Part shown: piece after piece, positions 14,830 to 58,274 of the stretch
How the letters are laid out: the number at the start of each line of letters is the position of its first letter
Position numbering within the stretch: the first letter of the stretch is position 1
Assembly (NCBI GenBank): GCA_024226555.1
Contig: JAAELO010000714.1
Coordinates: 1-61,968 of the forward strand
Source: Desulfobacterales bacterium
GTDB taxonomy: Bacteria; Desulfobacterota; Desulfobacteria; Desulfobacterales; JAAELO01
Reading direction: 5' to 3'
Length of the DNA stretch: 61,968 nucleotides
Notes under the pieces: generated by a model
Told to the model about the DNA's origin: nothing
The model's input: only the letters and a program-made list of their open reading frames with translations
The model's database searches: none
Program-made: the position numbers and the translations under genes

Positions 14830-15825
14830 TTGTTTAATAAATTTAAGGGTATGGTTAACCCAAGTAAATTTAAACCTTTAATAAAAGAAATTTTAGAGAG
14901 ATATAAAAACAGATCTATCGATTTTGAAGATGCAAGAGATGAAATACATTTGTTAGGCCCGGTAGCAACTTCTGATGTTCTGCTTATGGCTGAGTCTGGC
15001 AGATATGAATATGGATTGGATGTGCTTGCAATGGTTCTTGCAGATTACGATTATCCTGCAATATCATTTTTTCTTAAATGCCTTGAAAATGATGATGTTG
15101 AAGGTGTTGCATTGCCTGCAGCTTTTTATTTTGATAAACTTTATAACAAGAAGTTTAAAGTTGATGACATATTAAATCATGCCAGGGGTTTATCTGGAAT
15201 GGCTTCAGCTTTTAAAGAGATAAAAGAGTATTGTATTAAAAATATGCCTAAAACCATATCTGTTAATGAATGGTTAACAATCAAAATGAAAGAGTTTAAC
15301 TTAAAACATGAAGCTCATATACCTGAACAACCTCTAAACAGTTATGATGAAAATGAATCTATATATGATTTGGAAGTAGAATTAGCTCAAAAATTATCAA
15401 AACTCTCTTTTGATGATCATGTTAAATTTGATATAGAATGTTCAAAAAGAATTACTCATTTGTGTCTTCAGGATAAAGAATATAAAGATATACCGTATAA
15501 AGCTCTTGAAACAGCGGAATCAATAATTAATACAGAAAAGCACCATGAAGATATTGATAAGCTAAGAGAGAAAATTAAAGAATCTCTTAATGAAGCAAAT
15601 AACAGAGCTAAGTGGAACAATATTAAAAATGGCTATGAGAACCCTAAAGCATATTCTGCAGTTTGTGCGGCACAAACAATACTATATGCAATAAGTGATT
15701 CAAAAAACAGAGGTGCTGCAGCACAAGGATTTGCAAGAGATTCTATAGAATATGCAGGGTTAGGTTTTACAAGTGTAAAAGAAGAGCTTACGTGGCAGCT
15801 AAGCTTCCTGAATACTTTACTATAG
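14830..15825 (+). CDS. Hypothetical protein, unrecognised
   Basis: 331 aa, soluble, no signal peptide or membrane helix. The TTG start is set by AAGGAG eight bases upstream. The N-terminal 140 residues look all-helical (LLGPVATSDVLLMAESGRY, DVLAMVLADYDYPAISFF), possibly HEAT-like. The middle is acidic and coiled. The C-terminal 60 residues (SAVCAAQTILYAISDSKNRG) are Ala-rich. No family recognised. The stop is formed at the junction with a foldback element: TA of the target plus G of the element. Without the element the gene would end in TAA at the same place. Confidence 0.7.
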   Translation: MFNKFKGMVNPSKFKPLIKEILERYKNRSIDFEDARDEIHLLGPVATSDVLLMAESGRYEYGLDVLAMVLADYDYPAISFFLKCLENDDVEGVALPAAFYFDKLYNKKFKVDDILNHARGLSGMASAFKEIKEYCIKNMPKTISVNEWLTIKMKEFNLKHEAHIPEQPLNSYDENESIYDLEVELAQKLSKLSFDDHVKFDIECSKRITHLCLQDKEYKDIPYKALETAESIINTEKHHEDIDKLREKIKESLNEANNRAKWNNIKNGYENPKAYSAVCAAQTILYAISDSKNRGAAAQGFARDSIEYAGLGFTSVKEELTWQLSFLNTLL

Positions 15826-15950
15826 GGAACCTCTAATAATTAGAATTTTGTTTGAAATACATGAGAAAAAAATAACGAGCCGATTTTACAACAGTTATTT
15901 TTTGTGAACAACGCTGTAGTTCGATCAAAAGGCGGTTATTAGAGATTCCC
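15825..15950 (+). mobile_element. Foldback MITE-like element at a stop codon
   Basis: 126-bp copy flanked by TATA at 15821-15824 and 15951-15954. Its first G completes the TAG stop of the upstream gene. The downstream gene starts 31 bp after it. Confidence 0.88.
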
Positions 15951-15981
15951 TATAAAAATTAAGTTTTGTGAAGTTATTAAA

Positions 15982-30733: not shown

Positions 30734-30876
30734 ATTATGGTTGTAATATCGTATTTTACATCCACTCATAATTTTTTAATAATATCTGTTGCAAAGCCGA
30801 TTACCTTATTATTTTGGACATAGTTATAAGGAGGAAAAGGTTCCATGATTATTTGAATAAAGAATTATTTATTAAT

Positions 30877-31005
30877 GGGAACCTCTAATAATTAAAATTT
30901 TGGATGAAATACAGGCATTTCAAAAAATAACGAGCCGATTTTATTACAGTTTTTTTTGGAAATAACAATGTATTTCGCCAAAAGAGAGGGTTATTAGAGA
31001 TTCCC
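30877..31005 (+). mobile_element. Foldback MITE-like element
   Basis: 129-bp copy flanked by TAAT at 30873-30876 and 31006-31009. The rest of the 616-bp gap 30634-31249 holds the terminator above and a short gene relic directly to the right. Confidence 0.88.
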
Positions 31006-31114
31006 TAATAATAATTTGAAATATTTCATGAATTTCCGTGGTGAGGCCAAAGATCTCAAGTATCAGGTAAAAGTATTAAAAAACTTATATGATGGGTTCG
31101 CAAAACGCGCTTAA
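31006..31114 (+). pseudogene. Short C-terminal gene relic abutting an element
   Basis: From the element's right edge an open frame reads NNNLKYFMNFRGEAKDLKYQ and VKVLKNLYDGFAKRA, then stops. It is coding-like, with an internal ATG at 31028 but no RBS. It looks like the tail of a gene whose upstream part was lost at or near the element. Confidence 0.3.
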
Positions 31115-38463: not shown

Positions 38464-38625
38464 GGGGAACCTCTAATAATTAGAATTTTTGATGAAAAAT
38501 AGCGTTTATAAAAGCTTTTAGTTTTATAAAATCTCTGCATAACAAAAAACAACGGGTTGATTTTACTACAGTTTTTTTTGTTATGACGCTGTGTTTCGCA
38601 AAAAGATCAGTTATTAGAGATTCCC
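38464..38625 (+). mobile_element. Long-form foldback element
   Basis: 162-bp copy flanked by ATAA at 38460-38463 and 38626-38629. Its first base directly follows the TAA of the HDOD gene. Nearly identical to the copies at 36402 and 61766, so these three spread recently or are under constraint. The next gene starts 17 bp after it. Confidence 0.9.
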
Positions 38626-38641
38626 ATAAGTCTGGAGCTTA

Positions 38642-44349: not shown

Positions 44350-44385
44350 AGAAATCTATCATTTTTAAAATTTAAAAACATTTAA

Positions 44386-44514
44386 GGGAACCTCTAATAA
44401 TTAATATTTTGGATGAAATGCAAGGCATTTCCAAAAGTAACGAACCGATTTTATTACAGTTTTTTTTGGAAATAACAAAGTATTACGCCAAAAGAGGAGT
44501 TATTAGAGATTCCC
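44386..44514 (+). mobile_element. Foldback MITE-like element upstream of nif operon
   Basis: 129-bp copy flanked by TTAA at 44382-44385 and 44515-44518. The core arms are ATTTCCAAAA (44427-44436) and TTTTGGAAAT (44464-44473). It separates the cupin gene from the nif control region. Confidence 0.9.
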
Positions 44515-44704
44515 TTAAGATTTATTTTGTTCAAGTAATATATGAAAAATACATTTTAATAGTGATTTTTTATATTCATGACACAACCAAGATAACAACA
44601 GTTAGTTTCAGTTAAAATGCAGCTATTCGAAGTTCCTAATATCTGCATTAATCCCTTCTTTAATAATTTGCTACCATTTCTATAATACTACCCTAATTAT
44701 ATAT

Positions 44705-44787: not shown

Positions 44788-45738
<951 letters not shown>

Positions 45739-45802
45739 AAACCAGCCAATTAAATGAAACTTATAAGACAACTTTGAATAATGGAACATGGAGATATTTA
45801 AA

Positions 45803-46150
45803 ATGATAATGATTCGTTCAATAATAAGACCAGAAAAGGTTGATAGCGTTTTAACTTCACTTATGGAAGCTGGATTTCCTGCAGTTACAAAATATCCTGT
45901 GGCTGGGCGTGGTAAACAGCGCGGTATAAAGATAGGGGAAATCACATATGATGAAATTCCAAAAGAGATGTTGATGGTAGTAGTTAAAAAATCAGATAAA
46001 GACTATGTGCTTGAAATAATAATGAAGGCTGCAAAAAGCAGTAATACTGGAGCTTTTGGAGATGGTAAAATATTTATTAGTGAAGTTTCAGAAGTATACA
46101 CAATTAGCTCTGGTGTAAAAGAAACGGAAGCTGAAGAGGTTCCGGTATGA
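45803..46150 (+). CDS. nifI1: PII-like nitrogenase regulator NifI1
   Basis: 115 aa from ATG 45803. GGAG at 45790-45793 is correctly spaced for it, and MIMIRSIIRPEKVDSVL matches family N-termini; an upstream in-frame ATG at 45788 overlaps that RBS. PII fold with T-loop PVAGRGKQRGI and C-terminal TGAFGDGKIFI. With NifI2 it forms a complex that inhibits nitrogenase when ammonium is present and is released by 2-oxoglutarate (established in methanogens). Overlaps nifI2 by four bases. Confidence 0.94.
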   Translation: MIMIRSIIRPEKVDSVLTSLMEAGFPAVTKYPVAGRGKQRGIKIGEITYDEIPKEMLMVVVKKSDKDYVLEIIMKAAKSSNTGAFGDGKIFISEVSEVYTISSGVKETEAEEVPV

Positions 46151-46521
46151 AGGAAGTAATTGCTGTCTTAAGAATGGATATGATGACAAAGACAAAAAAA
46201 GCCCTTTCAGAAATAGATATCCCATCACTTCATGCCAGTGCTTGTCTTGGAAGAGGTAAAGGTCTTGTTGATATGATGGTTCTTAAAGGTGCTGAAAAAG
46301 GATATGAAGAAGCTATTGAGCAGCTTGGTAGTGGTGGAAGACTTATTCCCAAGAGATTACTTAGTATAGTTCTTCCTGACAAAAAGGTGGATCAGGTTAT
46401 AAAATTGATAATTAAAGTAAATAAAACAGGTAAATCCGGGGATGGAAAAATATTTGTGATGCCAATAATTAACGCACATAGAGTAAGAACCGGAGAATCC
46501 GGAGAAGAAATTCTGGATTAA
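46147..46521 (+). CDS. nifI2: PII-like nitrogenase regulator NifI2
   Basis: 124 aa, ATGA overlap with nifI1. PII-like with KEVIAVLRMDMMTKTKKALS, CLGRGKGLVD, LIPKRLLSIVLPD and KTGKSGDGKIFVMP. Partner of NifI1 in post-translational switch-off of the nitrogenase encoded next door. Whether it is nucleotidylylated is unknown; NifI proteins generally are not. Confidence 0.94.
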   Translation: MKEVIAVLRMDMMTKTKKALSEIDIPSLHASACLGRGKGLVDMMVLKGAEKGYEEAIEQLGSGGRLIPKRLLSIVLPDKKVDQVIKLIIKVNKTGKSGDGKIFVMPIINAHRVRTGESGEEILD

Positions 46522-46569
46522 AAATTTATAGGAAACGATACGTAAAGAGAAACTATTGAGGTGAATACA

Positions 46570-48216
46570 ATGTCTGAGTTAGTTATTGAAAAATATAAAG
46601 AAAAAACCGACCCTGAATTTATTAAAAAAGAATTAATAAAAAAATATCCAACCAAGGTAGCACGTAAGAGGTCCAAACAAATTGTCGTTAATAAAGTTGA
46701 TGGTGATAAGAATGTTCCTGAAGTGTTTGCAAATACAAGAACCATTCCGGGTATTATAACTCAGAGGGGTTGTACATATGCAGGTTGTAAAGGTGTTATT
46801 TTAGGGCCAACACGTGACCTTGTAAATATAGTACATGGACCAATTGGATGTAGTTTTTACGCATGGCTAACCAGAAGAAATCAAACCAGATTAACGTCTG
46901 AAGATGATGAGAACTACATGACCTACTGTTTTTCAACAGATATGCAGGAATCAGATATTGTGTTTGGTGGAGAGAAGAAATTAAAAGATGCTATTCAGGA
47001 AGCTTATGATCTTTTTCATCCCAAGGCTATAAGTATTTTTTCGACATGTCCGGTAGGTCTTATTGGGGATGATGTCCATGCTGTGTCACGAGAGATGAAG
47101 GAAAAGCTTGGTATAAATGTTTTTGGATTTTCATGTGAAGGTTACAAAGGTGTTAGTCAATCAGCTGGACACCATATTGCAAATAATGGTGTCTTTAAAC
47201 ATATCATTGGTGAAGATGACTCTATAGGTGATGGTGAGTACAGGATAAATCTTTTAGGTGAGTATAATATTGGTGGAGATGGTTTTGAAATAGACAGGAT
47301 TCTTGCAGATTGTGGAATTTCAGTTGTTTCAACATTTAGTGGAAATTCGACTTATGATCAGTTTGCAAACTCTCATACCGCAGATCTTAATACAATAATG
47401 TGTCACAGATCTATAAACTATGTTGCAGAGATGATGGAGAAGAAATTTGGAATTCCGTGGATAAAAATAAATTTTATTGGTGCAAAAGCAACGGCAAAAT
47501 CTTTAAGAAAAATAGCTGAATATTTTGGAGAAGAAAAATTAATTAAAAAAGTTGAAGAAGTAATTAAAAAAGAAATGCCTTATGTTGATGATGTAATGAG
47601 TGCTGCAAGGAAAAAATGTGAAGGTAAGAAGGCAATGCTTTTTGTAGGTGGCTCACGGGCACACCATTATCAGGAACTTTTTAAAGAATTAGGAATGGAA
47701 ACTGTTTCAGCAGGTTATGAATTTGGGCATAGGGATGATTATGAAGGAAGGAAAGTACTTCCTTCCATAAAAATTGATGCTGATAGTCGTAATATTGAGG
47801 AACTCGAAGTTTCTAAAGATCCAAAGAGATATAAACCAAGAAAAACTAAAGAAGAGTTAAAAGCACTTACAGATCAGGGTTTCACATTTGAAGCGTATGA
47901 CGGAATGATGTCTGAAATGGAGCAGGATTCCATAATAATTGATGATTTAAACCATCATGAAACTGAAGTGTTAATAAATCTTTGTAAACCGGATATAATT
48001 TGTGCAGGCATAAAGGAGAAGTATGTTGTACAGAAAAGTGGGGTACCTTTGAAACAGTTACATAGTTATGATTCTGGTGGTCCATATGCAGGATTCAAGG
48101 GTGCGATTAATTTTTATAAAGATATCGACAGAATGGTTAATTCCAAAGTGTGGGGCTACATTAAACCTCCATGGGAGTCGGATCCGGAGCTATCAGCAAA
48201 ATACGCATGGGAATAG
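46570..48216 (+). CDS. nifD: Nitrogenase MoFe protein alpha subunit NifD
   Basis: 548 aa from ATG 46570. GAGGTG at 46558-46563 acts as its RBS, so the GTG inside it is not the start. P-cluster ligands C68 (RGCTYAGC), C94 (PIGCSFYAW) and C160 (STCPVGLIGDD). FeMo-co ligands C278 (MCHRSINY) and H498 (LHSYDSGGPYAGF). The roughly 50-residue insertion around 395-450 (RKVLPSIKIDADSRNIEELE) is the one known from clostridial-type NifD. A molybdenum enzyme rather than Vnf/Anf is likely, since no nifD-nifG-nifK order is seen. Confidence 0.95.
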   Translation: MSELVIEKYKEKTDPEFIKKELIKKYPTKVARKRSKQIVVNKVDGDKNVPEVFANTRTIPGIITQRGCTYAGCKGVILGPTRDLVNIVHGPIGCSFYAWLTRRNQTRLTSEDDENYMTYCFSTDMQESDIVFGGEKKLKDAIQEAYDLFHPKAISIFSTCPVGLIGDDVHAVSREMKEKLGINVFGFSCEGYKGVSQSAGHHIANNGVFKHIIGEDDSIGDGEYRINLLGEYNIGGDGFEIDRILADCGISVVSTFSGNSTYDQFANSHTADLNTIMCHRSINYVAEMMEKKFGIPWIKINFIGAKATAKSLRKIAEYFGEEKLIKKVEEVIKKEMPYVDDVMSAARKKCEGKKAMLFVGGSRAHHYQELFKELGMETVSAGYEFGHRDDYEGRKVLPSIKIDADSRNIEELEVSKDPKRYKPRKTKEELKALTDQGFTFEAYDGMMSEMEQDSIIIDDLNHHETEVLINLCKPDIICAGIKEKYVVQKSGVPLKQLHSYDSGGPYAGFKGAINFYKDIDRMVNSKVWGYIKPPWESDPELSAKYAWE

Positions 48217-48327
48217 CTAATAATCAGCTTTTGAGCGAATTACTGCGTGACTCGAAAAATTATTAACCTCGAAATATAAAACATGATAAGGGCAAAGATA
48301 ACTAAATAGCAGGCTTGTAAAATTCCT

Positions 48328-48430
48328 CCATTTACAGCGTTAAATTATACAATTCAAACCCTCGATGTATAATTTATACGCCTCGGGTTTGAATCGATAA
48401 TTACGCCTTGTAAATGAAGTTTTTTACTTC
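48328..48430 (+). promoter_or_regulatory. Nested hairpin in the nifD-nifK spacer
   Basis: The 331-bp spacer folds: outer arms CATTTACA (48329-48336) and TGTAAATG (48409-48416), inner arms ATTCAAACCC (48352-48361) and GGGTTTGAAT (48385-48394), and a central GTATAA/TTATAC. A T-run (GTTTTTTAC) follows. nifD and nifK are usually tightly linked, so this may be a partial terminator or RNA-processing site setting subunit ratio. It is not a member of the foldback element family. Confidence 0.65.
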
Positions 48431-48547
48431 GCCATATTAAAGATTATTTATTAAGGACATATAAGTTTAAAAATCGTTATAAAGAATAAAATATGTTGTT
48501 GAAACCCCGAACAATTTAAACAATGTATCCAGAGAGGAGAATTTAAA

Positions 48548-49924
48548 GTGTTACTAAAACATACACCGGAAAAAATAAATGAGCGGAAAGCACTTGTTAT
48601 AAATCCCGCCAAGACATGCCAGCCCATTGGTGCAATGTATGCGGCACTTGGCATTAATAGTTGTCTGCCCCATAGCCATGGGTCGCAAGGATGCTGTTCA
48701 TATCACAGGAGTACTTTAACAAGACATTATAAAGAGCCGGTTATGGCTGCGACAAGTTCTTTTACAGAGGGATCTTCAGTTTTTGGAGGTCAGTCCAACC
48801 TTATTCAGGCATTTAATAATATTTTTACTGTCTATGAGCCTGAAGTAATAGCAGTTCATACTACCTGTTTATCAGAAACAATAGGTGACGATGTTACACA
48901 GATCTCTAAAAAGGCTCTTGATGATGGGAAAATCCCTGATGGTAAATATGTGATCCATGCAAGTACTCCAAGTTATGTGGGTTCACATGTTACAGGTTTT
49001 GCAAACATGTGTAATGGTATGGTGAATTGCCTTGCTGAAAAATCAAATGTAAAATGCGATTTTCTTAATATTATACCAGGATATGTTGAACCATCAGATA
49101 TGGAGGAGATCAAAAAAATTATTGAGGCTTTAGGTGTTAAATATATCATGTTTCCTGATACATCAGGAATACTTAATGGTCCTCAGACCGGTAAATATAG
49201 TATGTATCCAAAGGGTGGTGCAACTGTAGCTGATATAAAACGAACAGGTGATGCTATTGGAACATTAGCACTTGGAAAAACAGCTTCATCACTTGCAGCA
49301 AAGACACTTGATACAAAATTTAAGGTACCTTGTGAAATTATTGATCTACCAATAGGGTTAAGTTCAACAGATACTTTTATAGATACTTTAAGAAAAATTG
49401 CAGGAACATCAGTACCTGATTCAATAACCAGAGAAAGAGGACAGCTCGTGGATATCATAACAGATATGCATCAGTACTTCTTTGAAAAGAAAGTTGCTGT
49501 CTTTGGAGACCCTGATCAGGTTATTGCGTTAACAGGTTTTCTTGTAGATCTGGATATGTGTCCAATCCATATAGTAACAGGAACACCTGATAAAAAGTTT
49601 GAAGAGAAGATAAAAAAGATTACAGAGAGTGTTCCATATGAAGTAAATGTAAAGGCAAAAGGAGATACATTTCTTCTTCACCAGTGGATTAAAAATGAAC
49701 CTGTTGATCTTTTAATAGGTAATACATACGGAAAATATATTGCAAGGGATGAAGACATACCATTTCTTAGGTTTGGTTTTCCAATTATTGATAGAATCGG
49801 GCACTCATATTTTCCTACAGTTGGTTATAAAGGAGCGATGCATTTGTTAGTTAACATTTTGGATCTTCTTCTAACAAGGGTTGATAGAGATGCTCCTGAA
49901 GAAAGCTTTGAGTTAGTATTGTAA
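48548..49924 (+). CDS. nifK: Nitrogenase MoFe protein beta subunit NifK
   Basis: 458 aa, GTG start after GAGGAG. P-cluster ligands C24 (KTCQPIG), C49 (GSQGCCSYHR) and C107 (HTTCLSETIGDD) are present, as is SFTEGSSVFGG. It lacks the about 50-residue N-terminal extension of Azotobacter NifK, as in clostridial and archaeal-type enzymes. Forms the alpha2-beta2 MoFe protein with NifD. Confidence 0.95.
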   Translation: MLLKHTPEKINERKALVINPAKTCQPIGAMYAALGINSCLPHSHGSQGCCSYHRSTLTRHYKEPVMAATSSFTEGSSVFGGQSNLIQAFNNIFTVYEPEVIAVHTTCLSETIGDDVTQISKKALDDGKIPDGKYVIHASTPSYVGSHVTGFANMCNGMVNCLAEKSNVKCDFLNIIPGYVEPSDMEEIKKIIEALGVKYIMFPDTSGILNGPQTGKYSMYPKGGATVADIKRTGDAIGTLALGKTASSLAAKTLDTKFKVPCEIIDLPIGLSSTDTFIDTLRKIAGTSVPDSITRERGQLVDIITDMHQYFFEKKVAVFGDPDQVIALTGFLVDLDMCPIHIVTGTPDKKFEEKIKKITESVPYEVNVKAKGDTFLLHQWIKNEPVDLLIGNTYGKYIARDEDIPFLRFGFPIIDRIGHSYFPTVGYKGAMHLLVNILDLLLTRVDRDAPEESFELVL

Positions 49925-50017
49925 TACTAATACTTTGAGATGGAAGTATAAATAAAACAATACATTTATAAATACTTACAGGTTTTATAAAAAATAGTTT
50001 TATGAATTTTATACCAG

Positions 50018-50090
50018 TTTAGCCCGGGTTTTTTTATAAAATCCAATTATCCATCTCTGATATTTCATGGTGAAAAAGCCCGGGCTTAAA
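50018..50090 (+). promoter_or_regulatory. Hairpin in the nifK-nifE spacer
   Basis: AGCCCGGGTTTTT (from 50021) pairs with AAAAAGCCCGGGCT (50073-50086) across a roughly 45-base loop. It is a GC-rich stem in an AT-rich spacer of 198 bp. It could limit read-through into nifENB, whose products are needed in lower amounts than NifDK (inference). Confidence 0.55.
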
Positions 50091-50122
50091 TTTTGTATAT
50101 TACAGGATAGGATATTAGGAAA

Positions 50123-51511
50123 ATGATTACTGATTTAAAAATACTCAAAGAGAGAGAAAGACAAGTCTATTTAAAAGGTGAAGAGCCTTTTGATATGAAG
50201 TGTGATGTCAAGAGTACTGCCGGATCAGTAAGTCAACGAGCATGTGTTTTTTGTGGTTCAAGGGTTGTTTTATATCCTGTTGCTGATGCATTGCATCTGG
50301 TCCATGGACCAATAGGATGTGCAGCCTATACCTGGGATATTAGGGGGGCTCTGTCATCTGGTCCTGAACTTCACAGAAAAAGTTTTTCCACTGATCTGAC
50401 AGAAAAGGAAGTAATTTTTGGTGGAGAGAAGAAACTCTATCAAGCTCTAAATGAGTTAATAGAAAAGCACTCTCCAAAAGCTGCTTTCGTATATTCAACA
50501 TGTATTGTCGGAATAATAGGTGACGATGTGGGTGCTGTGGCAAAAAGAGTTGCAAAGGAAAAAGATATTCCTGTTATCCCTGTTCATTCAGAAGGATTTA
50601 AGGGAACCAAAAAAGATGGTTATCAGGCAGCTTGTACTGCTTTACTTAAGCTCGTTGGTAAAGGTGACATTAAAGGCATAAGTAAAACAAGTATTAACAT
50701 ACTTGGTGAATTTAATATTGGTGGTGAAGCCTGGATGATAACTGAGTACTATAAAAAAATGGGTGTTGAAGTTGTTTCAGTTTTGACAGGGGATAGTAGA
50801 ATTGAAAATATCAAAAAGGCTCATGGTGCATCTTTAAATGTCGTTCAGTGTTCAGGTTCAATGCTTTATCTCGCAAAGAAAATGGAGGAAGAGTACGGCA
50901 TTCCATTTATCAGGGTTTCATATTTTGGATTAGAGGATACCTCAAAGGCTCTATATGATGTTGCTTCCATCTTCAAAGATAATACTGATGTAATGGAAAA
51001 AACAAAAATTCTTGTGAAGGAGGAGGTTTTAAAAATATATGAAGATCTCTTATTCTATAAGAAACATCTCACAGGAAAGAGAGCCGCAATATATGTAGGC
51101 GGAGCTTTTAAAGCTTTTTCTTTAATAAAAGCTTTGAAATTTCTTGGAATGAAAACTGTGCTTGTGGGTTCGCAAACAGGAAATGATGAAGATTATGAGA
51201 TTTTAAGGGATATGTGTGATGATGGAACAGTCATACTGGATGATTCAAATCCCATTGAACTATCTAAATATATAGTTGAGAAAAAAGCCGATCTTTTCAT
51301 TGGAGGAGTAAAGGAGCGTCCAATAGCTTATAAAATGGGAATTGGGTTTTGTGACCATAATCACGAAAGAAAGACACCTCTTGCTGGTTTTAAAGGGATG
51401 TATAATTTTGCAGATGAAGTTTATTCAACTGTGATGAGCCCTGTATGGAAGTTTTGTCCAATAAGGCCGGAACTTTATGATAATCCCTTTTTAAAGAGGG
51501 GAATCCTCTAA
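50123..51511 (+). CDS. nifE: FeMo-cofactor scaffold subunit NifE
   Basis: 462 aa. NifD-like scaffold with cluster-binding Cys in RACVFCGSR, GPIGCAAYTW and STCIVGIIGDD, and LNVVQCSGSMLYLA where NifD has its FeMo-co Cys. H in CDHNHERKTPLAGFKGM. With NifN it matures the NifB-cofactor. The last codons and the TAA (GGG GAA TCC TCT AA region) come from the left end of a foldback element, so the extreme C-terminus (about GIL) is element-derived. Confidence 0.95.
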   Translation: MITDLKILKERERQVYLKGEEPFDMKCDVKSTAGSVSQRACVFCGSRVVLYPVADALHLVHGPIGCAAYTWDIRGALSSGPELHRKSFSTDLTEKEVIFGGEKKLYQALNELIEKHSPKAAFVYSTCIVGIIGDDVGAVAKRVAKEKDIPVIPVHSEGFKGTKKDGYQAACTALLKLVGKGDIKGISKTSINILGEFNIGGEAWMITEYYKKMGVEVVSVLTGDSRIENIKKAHGASLNVVQCSGSMLYLAKKMEEEYGIPFIRVSYFGLEDTSKALYDVASIFKDNTDVMEKTKILVKEEVLKIYEDLLFYKKHLTGKRAAIYVGGAFKAFSLIKALKFLGMKTVLVGSQTGNDEDYEILRDMCDDGTVILDDSNPIELSKYIVEKKADLFIGGVKERPIAYKMGIGFCDHNHERKTPLAGFKGMYNFADEVYSTVMSPVWKFCPIRPELYDNPFLKRGIL

Positions 51512-51626
51512 AAATTAGAAGTTTGGCTTAATTACAAGGCTTGAATAAATGTAACGAGCTGATTTTATGACAGTTATATTTTTTCGTAACGCAGTAATTT
51601 AGACAAAAAGAAATTATTAGAGATTC
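51498..51626 (+). mobile_element. Foldback element overlapping the nifE stop
   Basis: Divergent copy (GGGGAATCCTCTAAAAATTAG to TTATTAGAGATTC) covering the whole nifE-nifN spacer. Its left end encodes the nifE stop at 51509-51511, and nifN starts 16 bases after it, with AAAGGAG immediately after the right end. No flanking repeat is preserved. Confidence 0.78.
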
Positions 51627-51641
51627 ACAAAGGAGTTAAAT

Positions 51642-53009
51642 GTGATTGAGGATACTGTCGTAAAAAAAGATTCATATACTTCTACAACTAATGCATGCAA
51701 ACTTTGTACTCCACTGGGAGCCTGTATTGCATTTAAGGGAATTAAAGGGGCTATCTCTTTAATGCATGGTTCTCAGGGTTGTGCAACATACATAAGAAGG
51801 TACCTTATAAGTCACTTTAAGGAACCTATAGATATTGCTTCATCAAACTTTTCAGAGGATACTGCAATATTTGGTGGAGGAGCGAACTTAAAACAAGCTG
51901 TTCTTAACGTTTCAAATCAATATAAACCGGAACTTATTGGTATCTCTACTACCTGCTTAAGTGAAACCATAGGTGATGACGTTGGTTTAATCATTAAGAG
52001 TATGGCAACTGAAATTGATCATGATTATAAAGTAGTACATGTTTCAACACCTTCTTACACTGGAACACATGAAAGTGGATATCGGGGAACTCTAAGAGCT
52101 ATTGTTGAACAAATAGCAACAGAAGAAAAAAGTAGTGACAGATCAGTAAATTTCATATCCGCAATGCTTTCTCCTGCGGATATGAGGTATTTTAAAGAAA
52201 TTCTGGAAGATTTCCAAATTAGATACAGATTTCTTCCGGATTACTCTGAGACACTGGATGGTGCTTTATGGGATGAGTATAAAAAAATCCCCTCAGGTGG
52301 GACAACAATAGATGAAATAGCAAATATGTCAAAAGCCATTGGTACTATTGAACTTGGATATATAGGTAGCGAAAGTGAAAGCGTATCAAAACTACTCAAA
52401 GAAAAATTTAATATTAAAGATTACAGAGTTGGGATTCCTGTTGGTGTTGAAGCAACTGATAATTTGTTAAAAATTATTTCTGAGATTTCAGGAAATAATG
52501 TTCCGGCAAAATTCCTTAATGAGAGAGGACGACTTTTGGATTCCTATGTTGACGGACATAAATATGTTTTTGGTAAAAGATGTGTTCTATATGGAGAGGA
52601 AGATTTTGTAGTCGCAATTGCATGTTTCTTATCCGAAATAGGAATTATTCCGGTTTTATGTGGATCAGGTGGCAAGAGTGGAAAACTTAAAAAGGTGATT
52701 TCAAGTCGAATAGATGGGTTTGATGAGAAGCAAATTAAAGTGATGGACGGGGTAGATTTTTCTGAAATAGAAGAGATATCGAAACAATTAAAACCTGATT
52801 TTTTTATAGGAAATTCTAAGGGCTACTCCATTTCAAGAGAAATGAATATTCCCTTAATAAGAATTGGATTTCCTGTTCATGACAGATTTGGTGGCAGTAG
52901 AATTCTTCATACAGGATATAGAGGAACCCAGGCTCTTTTTGATTTAATAGTTAATACTCTTCTAAAGGAGAAGCAGGATAGATCCAGCACAGGTTACAGT
53001 TACTTATAG
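51642..53009 (+). CDS. nifN: FeMo-cofactor scaffold subunit NifN
   Basis: 455 aa, GTG start seven bases after AAAGGAG. NifK-like: NACKLCTPLGACIAFKGI, GSQGCATYIRRY, STTCLSETIGDD, SNFSEDTAIFGG. Pairs with NifE. Its TAG stop (53007-53009) is made at the junction with a solo left end of the foldback element. Confidence 0.94.
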   Translation: MIEDTVVKKDSYTSTTNACKLCTPLGACIAFKGIKGAISLMHGSQGCATYIRRYLISHFKEPIDIASSNFSEDTAIFGGGANLKQAVLNVSNQYKPELIGISTTCLSETIGDDVGLIIKSMATEIDHDYKVVHVSTPSYTGTHESGYRGTLRAIVEQIATEEKSSDRSVNFISAMLSPADMRYFKEILEDFQIRYRFLPDYSETLDGALWDEYKKIPSGGTTIDEIANMSKAIGTIELGYIGSESESVSKLLKEKFNIKDYRVGIPVGVEATDNLLKIISEISGNNVPAKFLNERGRLLDSYVDGHKYVFGKRCVLYGEEDFVVAIACFLSEIGIIPVLCGSGGKSGKLKKVISSRIDGFDEKQIKVMDGVDFSEIEEISKQLKPDFFIGNSKGYSISREMNIPLIRIGFPVHDRFGGSRILHTGYRGTQALFDLIVNTLLKEKQDRSSTGYSYL

Positions 53010-53067: not shown

Positions 53068-54354
53068 ATGAACCCCCACATAGATATAGAAAAGCATCCT
53101 TGCTTTAATAAAGATGCAAGACATAAATCAGCAAGAGTCCATCTGCCAGTTGCACCTGGTTGCAACATACAGTGCAAATTCTGTAACAGGAAATTTGATT
53201 GTGTGAATGAAACAAGACCAGGTGTAACAAGCGGAACACTTACTCCTTATCAGGCTATTGTATATTTAAGTCATGTGATGGAGGAATTAAAGAATGTGTC
53301 TGTATTTGGAATAGCAGGCCCTGGAGATCCTTTTGCTAACCCTGTAGAAACTATGGAAACTCTTAGGTATGTTAGGTCAACTTATCCTGAAATAATTTTA
53401 TGCCTGGCTTCAAATGGTCTAAACATTCTTCCTTATATTGATGAATTGAAAGAACTCAATATAAGTCATGTAACCATAACAGTTAATGCTCTTGAAACTG
53501 ATATTGCCGAGAAAATTTACTCCTGGGTTAGATATGGAAAGAAGGTTTTAAGGCCAAAAGAGGGTGTTAAAATACTTCTTTCAAATCAGATGCAAGCTAT
53601 AAGGAAACTCAAAGAGAAAGATATAGTAGTCAAAGTAAACTCTATCGTAATTCCAGGAGTTAATGATTTTCATATTGCTGATATAGCTGAAGAGATGTCA
53701 AAATTAGGAGTGGATATCTTTAACACCATGCCCTACTACCCAAATAAAGGTTCGGAATTTGCAGATATTGAGCAACCTTCAAAGAAGCTTATTAAAAATA
53801 TAAGAGATGAAGCAGGTAAGCATATTCCCCAGATGATGCATTGCTCGAGATGCAGAGCAGATGCAGTTGGATTGATTGGTGAAAAAACAAATTCAAACCT
53901 AATGGAAAAACTTAAAGTATGTGAAAGTATGCCTGATCAGCCAGATAATGTTTTTAATACTGAAAGTAAGAAAGAACATCAATACATTGCAGTTGCAACA
54001 CTTGAGGGGGTTTTAATCAATCTTCATTTGGGTGAAGCCCACTCTTTTAATATTTATGAATATATGGAAGGCAAATCAGAACTAATCGATTGCAGAGATG
54101 CTCCTGAACCAGGAAATGAAAAAAGATGGGATGAGTTGTCTAAAATTCTCCATGATTGCCATACTCTTGTAGTCAGTGATTCAGGTTTAAAGCCTGAAAA
54201 AGTTCTTAATGAAAACAATATCAATGTATTGAGGGTTGAGGGTCTCATTGAGGATACTCTTACAAATATTTTTGAAGGAAGAAGTATTCAACATCTTGTT
54301 AAAAGAGAGATTAAGCAGTGTGGTATGATGGGTAATGGTGGAGGTTGCATGTAA
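53068..54354 (+). CDS. nifB: NifB radical SAM protein with NifX-like domain
   Basis: 428 aa, ATG after AAAGGAGGGAAGG. Radical-SAM cluster C32-x3-C36-x2-C39 (CNIQCKFC), then HKSARVHLPVAPGC and GIAGPGDPFANP typical of NifB. It fuses [Fe-S] units with a SAM-derived carbide into NifB-co. The C-terminal about 110 residues (EHQYIAVATLEGVLINLHLG) are a NifX/NafY-like cofactor-binding domain, as in many bacterial NifB fusions. The tail ends in CGMMGNGGGCM. Confidence 0.96.
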   Translation: MNPHIDIEKHPCFNKDARHKSARVHLPVAPGCNIQCKFCNRKFDCVNETRPGVTSGTLTPYQAIVYLSHVMEELKNVSVFGIAGPGDPFANPVETMETLRYVRSTYPEIILCLASNGLNILPYIDELKELNISHVTITVNALETDIAEKIYSWVRYGKKVLRPKEGVKILLSNQMQAIRKLKEKDIVVKVNSIVIPGVNDFHIADIAEEMSKLGVDIFNTMPYYPNKGSEFADIEQPSKKLIKNIRDEAGKHIPQMMHCSRCRADAVGLIGEKTNSNLMEKLKVCESMPDQPDNVFNTESKKEHQYIAVATLEGVLINLHLGEAHSFNIYEYMEGKSELIDCRDAPEPGNEKRWDELSKILHDCHTLVVSDSGLKPEKVLNENNINVLRVEGLIEDTLTNIFEGRSIQHLVKREIKQCGMMGNGGGCM

Positions 54355-54367
54355 TTCAATCGCTTAA

Positions 54368-54498
54368 GGGAACCTCTAATAACTATAATTTTGATTAAAA
54401 CACAAGGCCTTTGAAAAAAATAACGAGGCGATTTTACACAGTTTTATTTTTTCAAATAACGCAGTAGTTCGGTCAAAGGGAAGTTATTAGGGATTCCC
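54368..54498 (+). mobile_element. Foldback element in the nifB-ferredoxin spacer
   Basis: 131-bp copy 13 bases after nifB. Core arms TTTGAAAAAA (54410-54419) and TTTTTTCAAA (54447-54456) differ from other copies but still pair. Flanks TTAA / TGAA (one mismatch). Confidence 0.82.
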
Positions 54499-54545
54499 TG
54501 AACAAGACAAACTTCATAATCTTAAAAAAAGAAAGGAAGTAAAAA

Positions 54546-54851
54546 ATGAATAAGCCGGATCATCATATATTTTTATGCGCCAGTTACAGAGTTTCAGGAG
54601 AGCCAAAGGGAATTTGTCATAAAAAAGGATCAGTCAATCTTCTTCAATATATTGAAGAGGAGATTGTGGACAGGGGTATTACAAACGTTCTTGTGTCATC
54701 AACAGGTTGCTTAAAGCAATGTGACCATGGTCCTGTAATGGTTATCTACCCTGATAACATCTGGATTAAAGGTGTTGTGTCGGAAGATGCTATTGACGAT
54801 GTTCTAGATGCAATAGAAGATAATAATTTTGATCAATTTATAGCAGCTTAA
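54546..54851 (+). CDS. Thioredoxin-like [2Fe-2S] ferredoxin
   Basis: 101 aa. Cys pattern C11, C24, C55, C59 (FLCASYRVSGEPKGIC..STGCLKQC) is that of thioredoxin-fold 2Fe-2S ferredoxins, the class known from nif regions of Azotobacter and Clostridium. RBS AAGGAAG. Probably an electron carrier for NifH or cofactor synthesis. The GlnD-like gene follows 19 bp later. Confidence 0.9.
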   Translation: MNKPDHHIFLCASYRVSGEPKGICHKKGSVNLLQYIEEEIVDRGITNVLVSSTGCLKQCDHGPVMVIYPDNIWIKGVVSEDAIDDVLDAIEDNNFDQFIAA

Positions 54852-54870
54852 TATAAGGGTGGGTCTTGTC

Positions 54871-56679
54871 ATGAATACAAAACCAATAGAAAATATATCA
54901 TGTTTTCAAAAGAAATCCTTTGAACTTGCTGGAAAAATTAAGGTTCTGAGTAATAATTACAGCAGGTCAATAGACTGGGAAACAGAAGGGTCTATATCAG
55001 ATTTTTTAGATGATTACTTTCAATATTGTTTTAGCGCAAGCATGGCAGGCCCTGAACTTGGTTTAATAAAAAACCCCTATGCATTACTTGCAATTGGAGA
55101 TTACGCATATGAAAGAAATTGCTTTTTCCCAAATATAAAAATTCTGTTTCTCTTTAAGGAGTTTATACCAGATAAGGCAGTGGATCTGATAAGAGAAGTA
55201 CTTTATCCTCTTTGGGATTTGGGTTTAAAAGTTCATTCATACACCAGAACAGTGAAAGACTGTTGTAAACTTGCGATGAAAGATAGCAGAAGTTTTTTTT
55301 CCGTATATAATTCCCGTCTGATATGCGGAGTTTCACTTGTATATTCAGACCTTCATGAACTTTTAAGGAAGCGGATAATAACTTATAAAAAGAGTGAGTT
55401 TATAAATGGTAAGTATTTGAATGATCTTAAAAGACATAAGCTGTATAAAGGATATAAATCTATTTTAGAACCTGATCCTGTAATGACCATAGGTGGATTA
55501 AGTGATTACCATTCTTTTTTTGTAATGGCTAAATTAAGATTTGGAATACAAAATAAAGCAGACCTGAAATTTAAAGGCCTTATATCCCATAAAGATTATG
55601 AAAATTTATGTGAGTCCCTGGAATTTATAAGAGATATAATCTTTCGTATTAAGATTCAATTCAGGGAAAAAAGTATAAAAATAGATACATATAGTAAACT
55701 CTCAAAGAAGATGAGATTAGAAAACAAAAGTTTTTGCAGTACTTCAGAGTGGTTCTTGAGGGAGATAACAAATCGTTTCAACGTTATTAAAGATATTTAT
55801 GCAGATATTATTATGCATATAAATCCTAAGGAGATCCAAAAAGAAAAAAAGAATAATTTAAAGAAAGAAACGAAAACCTGTGGCTTAAAGATAAGAGGGG
55901 GAATGCTTGATTTTGTAACTGTTAATGAGATTACTAAATTTCCGGAGCTTATGATCACAATTTTTAGGGAATCTTTGAAAGATGATATTTTTATCAACCC
56001 TGATGCAAAAAGATTGATTAAGGAATTCAGTTTTCTTTTGAATAGTGATGATATTAAAAGATACTTATACTTCATGAATGAAATTCTTTTCCTATCAGAT
56101 AATAAAGACTCAATTTTAATTGAGATGATTAGGTGCAAGGTTATAAGCAATATAATTCCTGGATTCAGGAATATAGAAACACTATTTAAAATAGACAGCT
56201 ATCACGAAATTCCAATTGATCTCCATTTAACAGAAACTGTATCTAATCTTGTTTCCATTGATAGAAAAGATTTTAGTGGAGAAAATTTTTTTCTAAAAGA
56301 ATTATATGAAGAAGTAAAAGACAAAAAAGTTCTTTTATGGTCTTCATTTCTTCATCATTTCGGGAATACAAAATCAATGGATTTTGAAGATGAGTTATTT
56401 GAAACTTTAGATTTGGTTTTTAACGAAGAGTCGAGAGCCAAAAAAGCACTTTTTATCATTAATAACCATGATATTTTAGATAAATTTACAATAGCAAAAG
56501 ATAATAAAACTTCAGAATTAATCAACCTTACAAAGAAATTAAAAGATTTGGAAACTTTAAATATATTATTCCTGTTAACAGTTGCAGATATAAAATCACG
56601 TGGAGCATTTGGCCTTTGTGAAAAAAAGTATAATGAATTAGAATTAATATATATAAAACTCAGAGATCGTATGAAATAG
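54871..56679 (+). CDS. GlnD-like pseudoenzyme in the nif operon
   Basis: 602 aa from ATG 54871 (AAGGGTGGG upstream). Collinear with PII uridylyltransferase GlnD: NTase region LLAIGDYAYERN..IKILFLF; LYPLWDLGLKVHSYTRTVKD; GGLSDYHSFFVMAKLRFGIQ; an HD region WSSFLHHFG; and LNILFLLTVADIKSRGAF. Key residues are changed. The GlnD catalytic DxD (as in SDIDL) reads N88-I-K90, the Gly-Gly-Tyr-Gly loop reads GDYAYE, and the HD pair of the uridylyl-removing domain is H495-H496. C-terminal ACT domains are absent (GlnD is usually 850-900 aa). It cannot be a normal GlnD. Position between ferredoxin and nifV suggests a regulatory binding partner of NifI or PII (inference). Confidence 0.82.
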   Translation: MNTKPIENISCFQKKSFELAGKIKVLSNNYSRSIDWETEGSISDFLDDYFQYCFSASMAGPELGLIKNPYALLAIGDYAYERNCFFPNIKILFLFKEFIPDKAVDLIREVLYPLWDLGLKVHSYTRTVKDCCKLAMKDSRSFFSVYNSRLICGVSLVYSDLHELLRKRIITYKKSEFINGKYLNDLKRHKLYKGYKSILEPDPVMTIGGLSDYHSFFVMAKLRFGIQNKADLKFKGLISHKDYENLCESLEFIRDIIFRIKIQFREKSIKIDTYSKLSKKMRLENKSFCSTSEWFLREITNRFNVIKDIYADIIMHINPKEIQKEKKNNLKKETKTCGLKIRGGMLDFVTVNEITKFPELMITIFRESLKDDIFINPDAKRLIKEFSFLLNSDDIKRYLYFMNEILFLSDNKDSILIEMIRCKVISNIIPGFRNIETLFKIDSYHEIPIDLHLTETVSNLVSIDRKDFSGENFFLKELYEEVKDKKVLLWSSFLHHFGNTKSMDFEDELFETLDLVFNEESRAKKALFIINNHDILDKFTIAKDNKTSELINLTKKLKDLETLNILFLLTVADIKSRGAFGLCEKKYNELELIYIKLRDRMK

Positions 56680-56688
56680 GTAAGTAAA

Positions 56689-57834
56689 ATGGATGATTTA
56701 AATGAGAGAACTTTAAAAATTATAGATACAACCCTTCGTGATGGAGAACAAACTCCGTACGTTTCTTTCAATAGAGAAAATAAGATTCAAATTGCAGAAA
56801 TGCTTGAAGAAGCTGGCGTTGATGAAATTGAAGCGGGTATTCCTGTAATGGGTTCTATTGAGCAAAAAACAATATCTGATATAACAAAAAGAATTAAAAA
56901 CTCACAAATCATAAGTTGGTGCAGAGCCAGCAGATTGGATTTAGAGTGCGCTGAAAAGTGTAATACAGGAAGGGTTCACATTAGCTTTCCAGTTTCAGAG
57001 ATCCAACTTGATCTTATGGGGAAAGATCACAAGTGGCTTTTTGATATTGCCGAAGATATTATTTCCGAAGCTGTAAAAAGATTTGATTTTGTTTCAGTTG
57101 GTGCCCTGGATGCAACAAGGTGTGAGATAAATATTCTTAAAGATTTCTCTAAATTTACACTTTTACTTGGAGCAAAAAGATTAAGGATTGCAGATACTGT
57201 TGGAATAGGAACTCCTTTAAATATATATAATATATTCAAAGAGCTTCTAGAAAATGAAAGTGGATTAAAGTATGAGTTCCACGGTCATAATGATCTTGCT
57301 ATGGCTGTGGCAAATTCAATATCAGCATTTGAAGCAGGAGCAGATGCGATTAGTACAACGATTAATGGTATTGGTGAAAGAGCAGGTAACGCTGCAACAG
57401 AAGAAGTTATTGCAGCTTTAAAATATGGATCTTTGAAAAAAACCAATATTAACCTTAAAAATCTTATAGCAGTTTGTAAATTAATTGAAAAACTAAGTGG
57501 AATTAAAACAAACAAACTTAAACCTGTCACAGGTAAAAATATAAATGTCCATGAATCCGGTATACACTGCAATGGCATGCTTAAAAATCCATTAAGTTTT
57601 CAACCTTTCAATCCTGAAGAATTTGGATTGGAACAAGCAATATTTGTTGCTGGAAAACATTCAGGATTAAATGGCTTAAAACATATTCTGGAAAAGAAAG
57701 GTATAATTCCCAGTGAGAATTATGTAAGAAAGCTTATAAAAAAAATTAAATTTGATTTAGAATCAAATTCCGGTTTTAAAGTGGAAGAACTGGTTGATAT
57801 GGATAAAATCTACGAGGAGATAGAGTTGTCATGA
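56689..57834 (+). CDS. nifV: Homocitrate synthase NifV
   Basis: 381 aa. DRE-TIM metallolyase: IIDTTLRDGEQTPYVSF, metal-binding HGHNDLAMA and GIGERAGNAATEEV. Condenses acetyl-CoA with 2-oxoglutarate to homocitrate, the organic ligand of FeMo-co. Ten bases after the GlnD-like gene; overlaps the following GNAT by four bases (ATGA). Nif context favours NifV over leucine or methanogen-type homologues. Confidence 0.93.
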   Translation: MDDLNERTLKIIDTTLRDGEQTPYVSFNRENKIQIAEMLEEAGVDEIEAGIPVMGSIEQKTISDITKRIKNSQIISWCRASRLDLECAEKCNTGRVHISFPVSEIQLDLMGKDHKWLFDIAEDIISEAVKRFDFVSVGALDATRCEINILKDFSKFTLLLGAKRLRIADTVGIGTPLNIYNIFKELLENESGLKYEFHGHNDLAMAVANSISAFEAGADAISTTINGIGERAGNAATEEVIAALKYGSLKKTNINLKNLIAVCKLIEKLSGIKTNKLKPVTGKNINVHESGIHCNGMLKNPLSFQPFNPEEFGLEQAIFVAGKHSGLNGLKHILEKKGIIPSENYVRKLIKKIKFDLESNSGFKVEELVDMDKIYEEIELS

Positions 57835-58274
57835 TCAGGGTAGCTGAACAGAAAGATATAGATGATATGGTTTTATTACTTAAAGAGCTTTTTGAAATAG
57901 AAAAGGATTTTACTTTTAACAAAAAAAAGCATGAAACAGGTTTGAAGAAGGTCATTGATGAAAAAGACAGAAGCCACCTTTTTGTTTATGAGAAAAATAA
58001 TGATGTAATTGGTATGTGCTCAGTACAACTTTTGATATCTTCTGTTGAAGGTTCCTTTTCAGCTGTAATTGAAGATGTTGTAGTAAGCAAAAACCATATT
58101 GGTAATGGTATTGGCAAAGAGTTGATATCTGCCTCAGAAAAATGGGCTTTAAAAAAAGGAGCAACGAGAATAACTCTACTTGCAGATAAAAATAATGTTA
58201 AAGCTCTTGGATTTTATGAAAGACTTGATTTTGAACAAACAGATATGTTTTGTTTACGTAAGTATCTTAAATAG
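57831..58274 (+). CDS. GNAT acetyltransferase at end of nif operon
   Basis: 147 aa. GNAT core EDVVVSKNHIGNGIGKELIS (acetyl-CoA loop) and NVKALGFYERLDFEQTDMF. Translationally coupled to nifV. GNAT genes next to nifV occur in other nitrogen fixers, but the substrate is not known. It seems to be the last gene of the operon. Confidence 0.87.
   Translation: MIRVAEQKDIDDMVLLLKELFEIEKDFTFNKKKHETGLKKVIDEKDRSHLFVYEKNNDVIGMCSVQLLISSVEGSFSAVIEDVVVSKNHIGNGIGKELISASEKWALKKGATRITLLADKNNVKALGFYERLDFEQTDMFCLRKYLK

Follow-up and report, generated by a model that had tools for sequence, protein, structure and literature searches.

A predicted GlnD-derived pseudoenzyme encoded between the ferredoxin gene and nifV in a Desulfobacterales nif operon

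GlnD enzymes tag PII proteins, which are their substrate, and the presence of a GlnD-like gene with replaced catalytic residues inside a nif operon raises the question of what such a protein is kept for. We report the analysis of a gene of this kind, here given the convenience name glnX, which lies at 54871..56679 on the forward strand of the window, by which we mean the whole stretch of 61,968 nucleotides that was analysed. Its product is a descendant of GlnD and we argue, with our confidence evenly divided for and against, that glnX encodes a nif-resident pseudoenzyme that has lost catalysis stepwise and serves as a non-catalytic binder, with a PII-family protein as its likeliest partner. 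No description of a gene of this kind was found in the open-access literature searched, outside which most subscription papers fall.

The glnX gene and its neighbourhood

The source genome (7.7 Mb in 904 contigs) carries dsrA and, because of this and of its membership of the order, the organism is likely to be a sulfate reducer of the Desulfobacterota. Its nif cluster reads, in order and on the forward strand, nifH, nifI1, nifI2, nifD, nifK, nifE, nifN, nifB, a 2Fe-2S ferredoxin gene, glnX, nifV and a GNAT acetyltransferase gene. The series from nifH to nifN occupies 44911..53009, with the nifH start taken as 44911, and includes the genes for two PII-like proteins, nifI1 (45788..46150) and nifI2 (46147..46521), the T-loops of which lack the RGAEY uridylylation site. 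These are followed by nifB (53068..54354) and by the nif-type ferredoxin gene (54546..54851), which lies directly upstream of glnX across a gap of 19 bp. On the other side, 9 bp separate glnX from nifV (56689..57834), whose end is overlapped by the GNAT acetyltransferase gene (57831..58274).

A first-pass annotation of this DNA, made from the letters alone, had described an intact open reading frame of 602 codons between a ferredoxin gene and nifV, in a cluster that also holds nifI1 and nifI2, and the coordinates, length and position of the gene all hold. The same annotation had credited the gene with a good ribosome-binding site; a site is present, but AAGGGTGGG is of only fair quality. An alternative GTG start is possible at 54859, 12 bp upstream.

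Across the order, many nif clusters have a GNAT acetyltransferase gene next to their ferredoxin gene or nifV (57831-58274 in the window and many of the loci L064-L113). A MITE-like element of about 130-160 bp, with inverted ends of 18-21 bp (AGGGAAYCYCTAATAACT), lies at 54364-54502, between nifB and the ferredoxin gene, and further copies are found in the window at 44385-44515, 30876-31006, 15824-15951, 38464-38626 and elsewhere; one copy thus lies among the nif genes and another shortly before nifH. Sites resembling the ends of this element number 27 in the window, where 0.28 are expected, and there are 1198 such sites with at most one mismatch across the 7.7-Mb genome, against 0 in the control. 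Rfam gave no match within the window.

Descent from GlnD and the replaced catalytic residues

The glnX protein is homologous to GlnD across the NTase, PF08335 and HD regions. It matches the Pfam family GlnD_UR_UTase (PF08335) with an E-value of 1.6e-12, the helical region concerned spanning residues 177-313 (55399..55809), and it matches the NCBIfam model UTase_glnD (TIGR01693) collinearly over residues 68-577 with an E-value of 1.3e-50, yet with a score of 172.6 bits that is below the cut-off of 519.4. Together with an alignment to E. coli GlnD, these matches bear out the collinearity through NTase, helical and HD regions that had been proposed for the protein. The HD-like region, residues 326-602 (55846..56676), has a fold like that of the HD relatives among the CCA-adding and poly(A) polymerases and stops where the ACT domains would start. 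The sensor domains are absent, as the first-pass annotation had it: no ACT match was obtained in the glnX protein, whereas the GlnD of the same genome does give ACT-like matches.

An AlphaFold2 model of the protein, built on an alignment of 49 sequences, has a mean pLDDT of 87.1 and a pTM of 0.87. In this model, residues 4-315 correspond structurally to both adenylyltransferase domains of GlnE (Z 22.8, at 3.7 A over 303 residues, and Z 21.5), and for residues 326-602 the matches are HD-type CCA/poly(A) polymerases (Z 21.0); a sequence search of the PDB matched only HD-type poly(A) polymerases. GlnE, the glutamine synthetase adenylyltransferase, contains a pair of NTase units and lacks an HD region, and although it is the best solved structural match for the N-terminal 315 residues, its sequence identity to the glnX protein is only about 8-11%. 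Identity to the GlnDs of the order is about 31-34%, over the same collinear arrangement of regions. The protein differs from GlnD in its lack of the NTase acids, of many basic residues, of the HD aspartate and of the ACT domains, as well as in its nif location and in the existence of a separate, intact GlnD.

The catalytic residues were compared in an alignment of 46 GlnDs of the order with GlnD of E. coli K-12. The canonical NTase signature, GGYGRxE...SDxD, is degenerate at residues 76-90 of the glnX protein (GDYAYERNCFFPNIK, 55096..55140), where the motif G-G-Y-G-R has become G-D-Y-A-Y and the DxD stretch reads PNIK, with N88 and K90 (N88 to K90 at 55132-55140) standing in place of D105 and D107 of E. 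coli. The third acidic site, E164 in E. coli and an aspartate in 44 of the 46 GlnDs, is replaced by N147 (55309..55311), and H495-H496 (56353..56358) replaces the HD dyad, H514-D515. All 46 GlnDs have D105, H514 and D515, and 44 of them have D107, the two exceptions being paralogs with alanine at this position in the genomes G081 and G017. The replacement of both catalytic sites, by N88-I-K90 and H495-H496, is therefore confirmed by the alignment with E. coli GlnD, to which the loss of the third acidic residue is added.

For the GlnD of R. rubrum, PMC3480911 assigns the UTase activity to the NTase domain and the UR activity to the HD domain; by this rule, and given the residues lost, both activities should be absent from the glnX protein, which, judged by its sequence, is catalytically dead. 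A second, intact glnD was sought in the source genome and found: one further GlnD of 863 amino acids (G000:C520) has every catalytic residue present. The residue losses and this intact copy elsewhere in the genome uphold the earlier description of glnX as a putatively dead GlnD derivative in the nif operon. An origin of glnX by recent duplication of this intact GlnD is rejected (p-AU 0.0066).

Homologues in the same slot and the maintenance of the gene

The nif clusters of 389 genomes of the order were located via the ferredoxin, and direct inspection covered 60 regions, each no longer than 20 kb. The slot between ferredoxin and nifV carries a GlnD-like gene in two further genomes, G081 (locus L071, 850 amino acids) and G017 (L073, 804 amino acids). 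With the window included, 3 of 61 nif regions have this arrangement, which is a lower bound because some regions end at contig ends soon after the ferredoxin gene. A search of 389 and 395 genomes with a profile of the three proteins gave no strong match to a fourth member. Absence by profile is weak evidence, since in a leave-one-out search the window protein came last among 67 GlnDs when scored with a profile of its two relatives, and a copy as divergent as this one would be missed; hence the direct inspection of the nif regions. The three proteins do not stand out by profile score, because they are the training set of the profile. A protein search of the genome contigs with the window protein found no match, its peptides being too divergent, and in plasmid records only ordinary GlnDs were found.

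The DxD position, D-V-D in GlnD, reads D-V-S in L071, E-V-R in L073 and N-I-K in the window, such that the residue equivalent to E. coli D107 is non-acidic in all three (S, R and K, respectively); the residue before it is P in the three nif copies and S in 46 of 46 GlnDs. At the HD dyad the same proteins read H-D, H-G and H-H. The G081 copy retains the dyad together with the first and third acidic sites, while in the G017 copy the dyad and most of the NTase acids are changed. Both have degenerate C-termini of ACT length, in neither of which an ACT match was obtained. Because of these C-termini, and of the HD dyad in G081, the absent ACT domains and broken HD site are recent features of the window copy and not of the lineage. 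The losses common to the three proteins extend to 23 sites that are 95-100% conserved in the 46 GlnDs, including D107 of E. coli and, in window numbering, K204, R211, R257, R266, K499 and R542/R543. The first-pass annotation had looked to homologues with the same substitutions in nif clusters with nifI, and this expectation stands in part: the D107 aspartate is lost and nifI is present in both genomes, but G081 keeps the HD dyad and two of the acids. No close homologue with the full catalytic residues was found in the order, nor was the gene found mostly outside nif clusters or in genomes without nifI.

A different catalytic activity with replaced ligands, for instance NTP binding or a phosphohydrolase acting on another substrate, might be read from the H-D of G081 and from the HD-set residues H452, H495, H533 and D573, which the window protein retains. 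We consider this most improbable, given that the aspartate of the dyad is H in the window and G in G017, that all three NTase acids are lost in the window protein, and that the retained residues differ among the three proteins, unlike those of a conserved new active site.

A maximum-likelihood tree places the trio in one clade with a support of 99/100, on very long branches. The window protein is 30% identical to the L071 and L073 proteins and 31-34% identical to ordinary GlnDs; since identity within the trio is no higher than to canonical GlnD, the clade rests on shared residues, gene position and this long-branched tree. The window protein has seven derived residues in common with G081 and as many with G017; five of these, P87, S148, G194, D202 and R577, occur in the whole trio. 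With the GlnDs tested, the window protein shares none to three. Furthermore, the closest counterparts of the window's nifN and nifB are those in L071 or L073, and its nifD, nifK and nifE are closest or near closest to the same two loci (L073 in the case of nifK). Common descent of the three nif-borne genes is likely, not certain.

glnX is the fastest-changing gene of the nif cluster, its protein being 30% identical to a syntenic homologue where nifD is 80% identical in the same comparison. The fast evolution of the window copy also fits relaxed constraint and, taken with the step-by-step disappearance of motifs, the missing C-terminal third and the rarity of glnX in the order, could mark a decaying duplicate with no present function, en route to a pseudogene. 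Several lines of evidence make such decay improbable. At fourfold-degenerate sites the neighbouring genes differ by 43-88%, and the comparison of window and L071 is saturated, at 69-81%. Between L071 and L073, fourfold differences amount to 43-62% in the nif genes and 58% in the GlnD-like genes, in which codon positions 1, 2 and 3 differ by 49, 38 and 64%, the second position least. In simulations of neutral change, 0 of 500 copies stayed open at 0.1 changes per site and about 27-35 stops accumulated at 0.5-1.0; that three lineages nevertheless hold open frames (602, 850 and 804 codons) indicates that selection kept the gene, and its occurrence in the same slot in two related genomes indicates that it was kept for a purpose. 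The window protein also retains 64 of the 111 columns that are at least 95% conserved in the 46 GlnDs, and its predicted model is well folded.

Where other genomes of the order have a second GlnD, this copy is catalytically ordinary. G081 (L150:6296-8920, reverse strand) and G017 (L151:7120-9759, forward strand) each carry the D107-to-Ala paralog mentioned above (SDIA/SDLA), and that of G081 lies directly upstream of glnA. These paralogs resemble glnX in the loss of the second NTase aspartate and differ from it in being full length and outside nif, with HD dyad and ACT domains intact; from their residues, they are possibly uridylyl-removing-only enzymes. The AU test does not reject a single clade made up of these paralogs and the nif trio (p-AU 0.228). 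G017 (L167:5430-8069, reverse strand) and G081 (L168:1142-3820, reverse strand) also have a GlnD each that is ordinary except for a serine at the third acidic site of the NTase. In G040 (L120:12977-15658, forward strand) an ordinary glnD lies with a PII gene a few genes downstream of nifV, from which it follows that GlnD near nif arose more than once in the order.

Candidate partners and a possible control of nitrogenase

The ancestry of glnX, PII being the substrate of GlnD, and its operon, which encodes NifI1 and NifI2, together make a PII-family protein the likeliest partner. That the partner belongs to this family in general, be it NifI1/NifI2 or GlnK/GlnB, is a guess, based on descent and on the neighbouring genes, that we think about as likely to be right as wrong. 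In addition to NifI1 and NifI2, the source genome encodes three PII proteins of the ordinary kind, which have the RGAEY site (the alignment shows two of them). To our knowledge, control by NifI operates through ligand binding without uridylylation, the NifI proteins are not known to undergo covalent modification or to have a GlnD-type partner. nifI is present in all three clusters that carry the GlnD-like gene and in nearly all nif clusters of the order with a complete nifH-nifD; being nearly universal, its co-occurrence with glnX does not discriminate and carries little weight. No signal of co-evolution between NifI and glnX was obtained, the trio-specific columns in NifI1 and NifI2 being one each (0.8%, against 0-0.4% elsewhere), with no excess over expectation for such short proteins.

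The absence of this signal would suit another reading, in which the pseudoenzyme binds or replaces GlnD, as a mixed dimer or decoy, or has a partner outside the PII family, for example NifB, the ferredoxin or nitrogenase assembly factors, and the link to PII is ancestral only. The genes next to glnX, for the ferredoxin and nifV, are not PII genes, and none of the three proteins keeps the conserved basic residues K204, R211, R257 and R266, through which GlnD may contact PII or NTP. We regard this reading as unlikely, though it deserves serious attention, for the whole HD-NTase scaffold is retained and a glnK-amtB pair lies just downstream of nifV in G081.

The preferred reading, that of a non-catalytic binder of a PII-family protein, may be set out as follows. 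A GlnD paralog would have settled between the nif ferredoxin gene and nifV in the ancestor of three related lineages, where the second metal-binding aspartate and basic residues of the NTase and helical part would have been lost first, followed in the window genome by the remaining NTase acids, the HD dyad and the ACT sensor domains. What remains would be a protein-binding module, free of catalysis and made together with nitrogenase, the partner of which would be a PII-family trimer: NifI1/NifI2 of the same operon, or GlnK/GlnB. The glnX protein would hold this trimer, or keep it away from the genuine GlnD or from the trimer's targets, and the outcome would be a changed ammonium response of nitrogenase or of nif transcription.

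Control of nitrogenase by the glnX protein is plausible in these terms. A more specific version, in which the protein docks on NifI1/NifI2 or unmodified GlnK and, by sequestering its partner with no modification, sets the threshold at which nitrogenase is switched off, is one that we advance tentatively and with more doubt than belief. The switch-off by NifI1 and NifI2 is related to it insofar as both proteins are encoded in the glnX operon; that control is not known to use a GlnD-like partner, unlike the scheme proposed here.

A GlnD pseudoenzyme kept in the nif operon of several lineages would offer a concrete candidate for a NifI partner. The series from G081, with its HD dyad and degenerate C-terminus, through G017, in which the dyad and most NTase acids are changed, to the window, where the C-terminus is gone, may portray a sensor enzyme turning into a catalysis-free regulator. 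If this is true, it would represent a layer of nitrogen control that uses the fold of a modifying enzyme without the modification.
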